A stretch of 43,160 bases of DNA from Candidatus Woesearchaeota archaeon (GTDB lineage: Archaea > Nanobdellota > Nanobdellia > Woesearchaeales > GCA-2686295): NCBI GenBank assembly GCA_016784125.1, contig JADHVI010000006.1, positions 1 to 43,160 of the forward strand, given 5' to 3'. Below are positions 4,142-39,500 of this stretch, in pieces. The notes beneath the pieces were generated by a model that made no database searches, had not been told where the DNA came from, and saw only the letters and a list, made by a program, of their open reading frames with translations. The position numbers were made by a program, and so were the translations under genes. Numbering within the stretch: position 1 is the first letter of the stretch; each line of letters starts with the position of its first letter.

Positions 4142-4243
4142 TTTTTATTCCTCCACCAGCTAAAGGATTTTAACCTTCCGGCCAGCATAGAAGTATCTAG
4201 CTTTTGTTTAATGTTGATGAGAATATTTAGAGTTGAATAAAAG

Positions 4244-4317
4244 GGCGATACCCGGGATTTGAACCCGGACCGAAAGATCCACAGTCTTGCATGCTACCAG
4301 ATTACACCAATACCGCC
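4244..4317 (-). tRNA. tRNA-His (GUG), with encoded G-1
   Basis: The minus strand folds into a full cloverleaf. Acceptor stem GCGGUAU pairs with GUAUCGC; the D stem is GUGU/GCAU with GG in the loop; the anticodon loop is CUGUGGA with anticodon GUG; the T arm is CCGGG-UUCAAAU-CCCGG. The nucleotide before the acceptor is G (4317) and the discriminator is C73 (4244), the G-1:C73 pair that identifies archaeal tRNA-His. One mismatch (C27-U43) tops the anticodon stem. CCA is not encoded and there is no intron. It heads the minus-strand run that ends with hisS. Confidence 0.95.
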
Positions 4318-6487: not shown

Positions 6488-7060
6488 TTATCTGTCTACA
6501 AACAATAAATGTTTCTCATTGCCTGTTAATTCTAGCATAACCCTTTTCTGAATTACTTTTTCAGGGTCAGGCATTAGTTTTACGCGTTTCTTTATATCAT
6601 TAAAATCTTTGAAAGGTTCGCCTCTTCGCTCTTCTACAATTTCCCACATATGTTTTTTTCCAACTCCAGGCAAAAGCTCAATTATATGCATTCTTGTACT
6701 TAGAGGTTGTGCTTTGTTAAAGAATTCTACAAATCTCTTTTGATCTGCGTGTACAAGCTGTGTTATTACATGTTCTAGCTCTGCTTTTGCAGTATGTGTT
6801 AATTTATCATATGCAACTTTTCCATTGATATGATGAATCTTATCCCTCTTCGCATCTCCAATGTAAACATCTTCATAGGGTTGTAAAAAAATCCCTTTCT
6901 TTGGGACTAATTCTAATAGTGTGAAATTCTCTTTACCTATTGCTTGCGCTATAGGCGTTTTCATGTGACTTGGCCTAGAATCAAAGGGGTAGCCGTTTGG
7001 CAAGAAGTCTAGCACTATAGCTTCATCTTCTTTTTTTCTTTGTAGCATTTTAACCCCCAC
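6488..7060 (-). CDS. DUF655 RNA-binding family protein
   Basis: 190 aa from GTG at 7060, or 186 aa from ATG at 7048. DUF655 proteins are archaeal, with an N-terminal OB-like part (EDEAIVLDFLPNGYP) and a C-terminal helix-hairpin-helix (IIELLPGVGKKHMWEIVEERR at about 125-146) that suggests nucleic-acid binding. The order L21e, rpoF, DUF655 found here on the minus strand is conserved across many archaea and links the protein to translation. Either start is possible: GAGG precedes the GTG and GGGGGU precedes the ATG. The exact biochemical function is not known. Confidence 0.9.
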   Translation of the reverse strand: MGVKMLQRKKEDEAIVLDFLPNGYPFDSRPSHMKTPIAQAIGKENFTLLELVPKKGIFLQPYEDVYIGDAKRDKIHHINGKVAYDKLTHTAKAELEHVITQLVHADQKRFVEFFNKAQPLSTRMHIIELLPGVGKKHMWEIVEERRGEPFKDFNDIKKRVKLMPDPEKVIQKRVMLELTGNEKHLLFVDR

Positions 7061-39303: not shown

Positions 39304-39500
39304 TAGTCCTGCCCGGACTTTCGCCAAAGGTTCCGATTTGCGAAGCAAATCCTTCGCCCGAAGGGAAGAATTTCGTCGTCAATGGGCGAAACCTTTGTTT
39401 CGAACCGAGGTCCTCAGGCCCAGAACCTGAGATGATTGACCTAAGATAACATCTTGGTCTTCAAGACGCCAGTCTTGTTTGGCCACTACACTACAGGACT
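39304..39500 (-). tRNA. tRNA-Gln (CUG) with two introns at non-canonical positions
   Basis: Acceptor stem AGUCCUG/CAGGACU with discriminator A73 (39304), as in other archaeal tRNA-Gln. The full cloverleaf forms when two segments are left out. Intron 1 (about 39436-39478, 43 nt) lies in the D loop: GGCC and GGUC pair as a 4-bp helix with three-base bulges AAA and AAU. Intron 2 (about 39318-39398, 81 nt) lies in the T loop: outer helix CUCGG/CCGGG, bulge AGU, helix UUCG/CGAA, bulge AAA, inner helix CAAAGGUU/AACCUUUG. The anticodon arm UCAGG-UUCUGGG-CCUGA carries anticodon CUG and no intron. Mature length is 73 nt with D-loop GGCCAAUC and T loop UUCGAAU. CCA is not encoded. Confidence 0.9.

Follow-up and report, generated by a model that had tools for sequence, protein, structure and literature searches.

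Transfer RNA genes interrupted by several introns at non-canonical positions, and large-scale transposition of such introns, are described for the Thermoproteales (Pyrobaculum and its relatives; Fujishima et al. 2010, as reported in PMC4090602). Reviews connect homotetrameric splicing endonucleases solely with canonical introns, and the non-canonical ones with enzymes encoded by two genes (PMC4090602, PMC3218864). A mobile-element model for Caldiarchaeum subterraneum has a tRNA fragment, an element and a tRNA gene in direct-repeat order alongside intron gain, and in 2012 direct evidence for a connection between disrupted tRNA genes and mobile elements was described as lacking (PMC3293823). Eukaryotic introners are short dispersed elements that turn into introns upon insertion.

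Here we describe a tRNA-Gln(CUG) gene of a Woesearchaeota archaeon that is divided into three exons (22, 37 and 14 nt) over 197 nt of the minus strand (39500-39304) of the window, that is, the whole 43,160-nt stretch of DNA that was analyzed (Table 1). As in the Thermoproteales, there are several bulge-helix-bulge (BHB) introns per tRNA, at D- and T-loop positions of which 59/60 is on the list in PMC4090602, and very similar introns occur in different isodecoders at different positions. In contrast to the Thermoproteales, in which the endonuclease is a two-gene heterotetramer, the present lineage is marine, belongs to the DPANN archaea and has a single-gene, homotetramer-type EndA; moreover, the family to which its T-loop intron belongs, R1, is also found beside and outside tRNAs, between direct repeats and in both orientations. 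The repeat arrangement resembles that of the Caldiarchaeum model, whereas the latter concerns one recombinase-bearing insertion at one tRNA locus and R1 comprises non-coding sequences of ~55-200 nt at dozens of loci within one order. R1 likewise resembles the introners, except that these are spliceosomal and occupy mRNA genes, and R1 introns are of the BHB type and occupy tRNA genes.

Table 1. Features of the interrupted tRNA-Gln(CUG) gene in window coordinates.
Feature	Position	Strand	Basis
Exon 1: acceptor 5' strand, D-stem 5' strand, D loop to GGCCAA	39479..39500	(-)	ARAGORN; same as D arm of intronless tRNA-Gln(UUG)
D-loop BHB central helix, 5' strand GGCC (exon)	39481..39484	(-)	Sequence, fold, relatives
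Intron 1, 43 nt, D loop, 21/22 (may slide 2 nt)	39436..39478	(-)	Comparison with relatives, fold, cut search
D-loop BHB central helix, 3' strand GGUC (intron)	39438..39441	(-)	Sequence, fold
Exon 2: D-stem 3' strand, whole anticodon arm, variable loop, T-stem 5' strand, UUCGAA of T loop	39399..39435	(-)	ARAGORN
Anticodon CUG	39421..39423	(-)	ARAGORN
T-loop BHB central helix, 5' strand UUCG (exon)	39401..39404	(-)	Bulge AA^A next to it, 39398-39400
Intron 2, 81 nt, T loop, 59/60, R1 family member	39318..39398	(-)	R1 covariance model match
T-loop BHB central helix, 3' strand CGAA (intron)	39320..39323	(-)	Bulge AG^U next to it, 39317-39319
Exon 3: U60, T-stem 3' strand, acceptor 3' strand, discriminator A73	39304..39317	(-)	ARAGORN

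Neither ARAGORN nor Rfam RF00005 detected a tRNA at 39304-39500 in the unspliced stretch. When both introns were removed, ARAGORN (introns off) called a 73-nt tRNA-Gln(CUG), which it did for neither single splice, and when two cuts were varied along the real sequence, 3857 of the 14700 combinations yielded a tRNA of >65 nt, against none in any of 12 shuffles. The D arm and the T arm of the spliced product, which cover both junctions, are the same as those of an intronless tRNA-Gln(UUG) that this genome also encodes (G000:C8:706-778), and the identical arms of this paralogue thus fix both junctions. An earlier, sequence-only reading had proposed a tRNA-Gln(CUG) interrupted in the D and T loops that forms no conventional cloverleaf until both introns are removed, with consensus loops restored by the two cuts and an anticodon loop free of introns; its coordinates proved exact and each of these points held, the anticodon arm lying without interruption within exon 2. 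The CCA end is not encoded. No other tRNA-Gln(CUG) was found in the same genome, whose 32 contigs total 953 kb at a completeness of 83.6%. Orthologues without introns exist in five genomes of the same order (G025, G028, G029, G035 and G039), one of which has a very similar acceptor stem, AGTCCTA/TAGGACT.

Two other kinds of disrupted gene were considered. A split or permuted tRNA is ruled out by the order of the three exons within 197 nt, and a group I intron by the Rfam search, which gave no match in the window at the gathering threshold except tRNA-His. The latter, an ordinary, intronless tRNA-His(GUG) at 4243-4316 (-), is the sole tRNA that standard tools detect in the window.

The T-loop intron is located between A59 and U60. 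At its junction the T stem serves as the outer helix, UUCG/CGAA as the central helix, AAA as the 5' bulge, AGU as the 3' bulge and CAAAGGUUUCG/CGGAACCUUUG as the inner helix. The sequence-only reading had identified these elements and had overlooked one additional unpaired G between the inner and central helices. Homologous T-loop introns, 29 across the order in various tRNAs and genomes, share the identical position and the same BHB arrangement; their hosts according to ARAGORN include Gln, Pro(UGG, GGG), Gly(UCC), Phe, Tyr, Leu, Ala, Val and Ser, and the present intron is identical at 74 of 81 positions to that of tRNA-Pro(UGG) in genome G003. In a 39-column junction alignment of the 29 introns, whose cells are not independent because the introns are related, pairing was found in 100% of cells for the T stem, 99.1% for the central UUCR/YGRA helix and 72% for the inner helix. 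Both-sided changes occur in nine pairs, all four pairs of the inner helix show double changes, and any of five pairing measures was reached in 0 of 500 shuffles, with slid-partner controls all far lower. Exon position 57 covaries with intron position -6, G57 occurring with C in 12 of 12 cases and A57 with U in 16 of 17 (Fisher 2.5e-7; the sole break is L055), and this pair is kept in 8/8 introns that were found by a 5'-core model alone, so that their 3' ends played no part in finding them. As judged from this alignment, the T-loop junction is a clear bulge-helix-bulge of near-canonical geometry.

Two further readings of the T-loop junction were rejected. The 3' end of the intron is not a mere direct repeat of the T loop, as A57 exons face intron UGAA, the complement, and an alternative register for the inner helix pairs in only 28% of cells. 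Separately, we observed a second conserved module, CACACCTGACGC-hairpin-GCGTCGCNACTGAAAGGAGCATGATGGTGTCGACGGAAATGACCGTCG, in the 3' part of the long T-loop introns L055, L056, L057, L058, L059, L083 and L085. The module, for which Rfam gave no match, also occurs in L103 (an anticodon-loop intron of this genome) and downstream of the L060 tRNA, thus recurring at different tRNA positions and behind tRNAs.

If the D-loop cut is made within the drawn bulges, its position in standard numbering is 21/22, and it may slide by 2 nt because both ends carry AA. The central helix and bulges that the sequence-only reading had drawn here are present, although its weak inner helix was misplaced: the weak element is the outer helix, which is the three-pair D stem and makes this junction a relaxed BHB, while the inner helix is extended by a stable hairpin (z = -2.6; the inner fold of the homologous intron in G007 is weak, z = -1.0). 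Among nine D-loop introns, comprising this one and those of relatives, exon GGCC stands opposite intron GGUC, GGCU or GGCC. Homologous 43-nt introns occupy the same place in tRNA-Gln(UUG) of G004, G005 and G007 (41, 38 and 37 of 43 positions identical, respectively), yet the tRNA-Gln(UUG) of this genome has none, so that the intron would have passed between isoacceptors or been lost from one. Within the genus, Gln genes carry from zero introns up to three (L059, L060). The D-loop intron lies outside the R1 family. In G032, an 87-nt tRNA-Gln(CUG) call (L041) fits a D-loop intron of ~14 nt, with exon GGCC opposite intron GGCC.

Using a covariance model of R1 that covers the first ~57 intron bases and leaves out exon sequence, we identified at least 91 matches in at least 27 of 99 relatives; the match in the present gene (39334-39398) has an E value of 5.5e-11, with this copy included in model training. 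Across 234 genomes drawn from the class, matches were confined to the same order, and the named congeners that carry the T-loop form are marine Woesearchaeota or Nanoarchaeota MAGs, which agrees with the DPANN origin suggested by the earlier reading. That reading did not recognize the T-loop intron as a member of a family that is dispersed and apparently mobile. About 68 of the 81 R1 copies inspected, the training copies of the model included, lie within tRNA genes or adjacent to them, as established by ARAGORN on raw or computationally spliced sequence (44), by the T-loop junction test (15) or by eye (9). The placements comprise the T loop, the D loop, the anticodon loop, the position directly behind a tRNA, and the interval that separates a complete tRNA gene from a partial copy of it. 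In this genome all six R1 matches are at tRNA genes: in the T loop of Gln and Tyr, in the D loop of Arg, in the anticodon loop of Ser and probably of Thr, and between copies of tRNA-Arg. Similar intron sequence thus recurs in different tRNAs and at different positions, as it does in the Thermoproteales.

The copy between tRNA-Arg sequences (G000:C21, ~6620-6745; L118/L103) separates a truncated tRNA-Arg 5' end from a complete tRNA-Arg, with a direct repeat of ~24 nt, AAATATTGGCCCTATAGCAWAGCC. Genome G048 contains a longer R1 variant with a conserved tail ending in ...AACTCCATG (L172-L175, L194 and L197), several copies of which stand right behind CCCC and some directly at tRNA ends. When 16 intron-bearing loci were scanned with Rfam for C/D or other known RNAs, tRNA alone exceeded the threshold. 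A search of viral contigs, plasmids and phages gave no match to R1 and revealed no transposase, integrase or autonomous relative for it.

Direct repeats of 18-41 nt flank 17 of the 81 R1 copies; the scan required the left repeat to end at the start of R1, and the counts were still well above those of shuffled controls. The second repeat copy stands 0-93 nt beyond the modelled R1 core and in most of the 17 cases coincides with one end of an intact tRNA. The repeat runs from the tRNA 5' end to the D loop if R1 and the tRNA have the same direction, and comprises the 3' end to the T loop if they are opposed; the repeat copy adjacent to R1 is often the decayed one (GATCCGA for GATTCGA). For at least seven R1 copies the neighboring tRNA is encoded on the opposite strand and its 3' end recurs as a direct repeat, and in L196 (G039:C133), away from any tRNA, R1 is accompanied by a 41-nt direct repeat of an apparent protein-gene start. 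The repeat-flanked copies lie in genomes from several families and contain no cargo of integrase size. Dispersed copies and target duplications of this kind suggest a mobile element, some of the duplications possibly being tandem ones.

To account for the excision of such introns, the sequence-only reading had called for an endonuclease of broad specificity, of the epsilon-2 or heterotetrameric type, a proposal that the genomes do not support. One significant PF01974 gene was found per genome, in this genome and in 19 of the 19 relatives tested, with a second, non-significant match in G005 only. The encoded EndA (206 aa) aligns best with the Nanoarchaeum catalytic subunit and the M. jannaschii homotetramer subunit; the regions of its catalytic Tyr, His and Lys align to 1a79, and it has no loop insertion relative to M. 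jannaschii. The single gene, the ~180-200 aa size class, the lack of a visible second subunit gene and of a crenarchaeal or ARMAN loop are all features of the homotetrameric (alpha4) kind, to which EndA would belong unless a second (beta) subunit divergent from PF01974 escaped the search. Since the T-loop BHB is near-canonical, a homotetramer-type EndA could plausibly cut it, and a special broad-specificity enzyme appears neither indicated nor required. The genome also encodes RtcB. In L022 (G000:C26; annotated by eye) the EndA gene adjoins, and is divergent to, an RNase Z-like (tRNase Z) gene.

By its position other than 37/38, its BHB junctions and the presence of the endonuclease and RtcB, the locus is assigned to the archaeal class of non-canonical BHB tRNA introns, with excision predicted. 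The gene very probably gives rise to a functional tRNA-Gln(CUG), from which two BHB introns are cut by EndA and whose exons are joined by RtcB, and its T-loop intron would be a spreading R1 copy and not ancestral; splicing itself, the direction of gain and the movement of R1 as DNA are the steps that we infer. In the precursor, exon GGCC would pair with intron GGUC at the D loop and exon UUCG with intron CGAA at the T loop, the single EndA would cut the flanking 3-nt bulges (AA^A/AA^U in the D loop, AA^A/AG^U in the T loop), and RtcB would ligate the exons to the 73-nt tRNA. The T-loop intron would not have been inherited with this tRNA from the ancestor of the order; R1 would be a small structured element that spreads among and around Woesearchaeales tRNA genes and is tolerated inside a tRNA if the target and the 3' end of R1 together form a full BHB.

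It is very improbable that the locus is instead a tRNA pseudogene, broken by a mobile element and left unspliced. An intact Gln(UUG) isoacceptor does exist and could read CAG by wobble, so that loss of a functional tRNA-Gln(CUG) would be survivable, and other R1 copies lie outside functional RNAs. Against such decay, the acceptor stem is a perfect 7 bp and its differences from the Gln(UUG) paralogue are compensated, quite unlike a pseudogene; the anticodon and T stems are perfect as well. The BHB pairing, moreover, is kept with compensatory change over 29 loci, and the affected tRNAs include Phe-GAA and Tyr-GUA, isoacceptors that are indispensable to an archaeon.

The route by which R1 spreads is less certain. 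Excised R1 introns might reverse-splice into BHB-compatible loops, followed by reverse transcription and recombination, or tRNA genes with common T-arm sequence might undergo gene conversion. The single position and sense orientation of the T-loop introns (29/29) favor this, as does the 41/43 identity of the D-loop intron to that in a congener's Gln(UUG), which isoacceptor exchange predicts; we nonetheless regard it as rather unlikely, given the R1 copies beside opposite-strand tRNAs with a repeat of the 3' end and those away from tRNAs, such as L196, neither of which fits reverse splicing into tRNA. An opposite orientation cannot come from reverse splicing into a tRNA, and part of the spread is therefore simpler at the DNA level. 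A doubtful reading, of much the same weight, holds that the direct repeats arose by ordinary tandem duplication or as att sites of an integrase, in either case independently of intron gain, and that R1 is a structured repeat that is transcribed. It gains from L185 and L195, which look like tandem repeats of a whole unit, and from the partial tRNA copies that SSV/pNOB8-type integrases leave (PMC3293823), and it loses from the ending of the left repeat at the R1 start in 17 cases, which the scan required but which number well above the shuffled controls, and from the presence of such cases, with 18-41-nt repeats and no integrase-sized cargo, in genomes from several families. Because tandem duplication explains L185 and L195 and no moving enzyme was found, we rate the likelihood that R1 moves as DNA at about one half. 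Our estimate is similarly balanced for the proposal that R1 is an archaeal counterpart of the introners, namely a miniature DNA element of the Woesearchaeales that prefers tRNAs, inserts in either orientation, often with a target duplication of 20-40 nt that leaves the tRNA intact, and becomes a BHB intron if it lands in sense in a loop that pairs with its 3' end.

In its dispersal R1 represents a new form of the archaeal tRNA-intron transposition that had been described for the Thermoproteales. Our search for literature on tRNA introns of the Woesearchaeota or Woesearchaeales found only a paper on a group I intron; subscription journals were mostly outside it, and an earlier description is possible. 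Relative to the literature searched, four points appear to be new, namely the lineage concerned, an endonuclease encoded by a single gene, how large the T-loop family is, and the additional occurrence of this family as a repeat-flanked element next to tRNAs. The accepted rule is that abundant non-canonical introns go with two-gene endonucleases (PMC4090602, PMC3218864); the findings go against it, and unless a very divergent second subunit was missed, this lineage would be an exception. The tRNA counts of Woesearchaeota MAGs, on which claims of missing tRNAs are based, are probably too low, since the standard model placed only 17 tRNAs over its cut-off in this genome. Finally, R1 is seen in many genomes in two states, as an intron and as an insertion flanked by repeats next to intact tRNAs, so that the question of how archaeal tRNA genes gain introns can now be tested by strain comparison.
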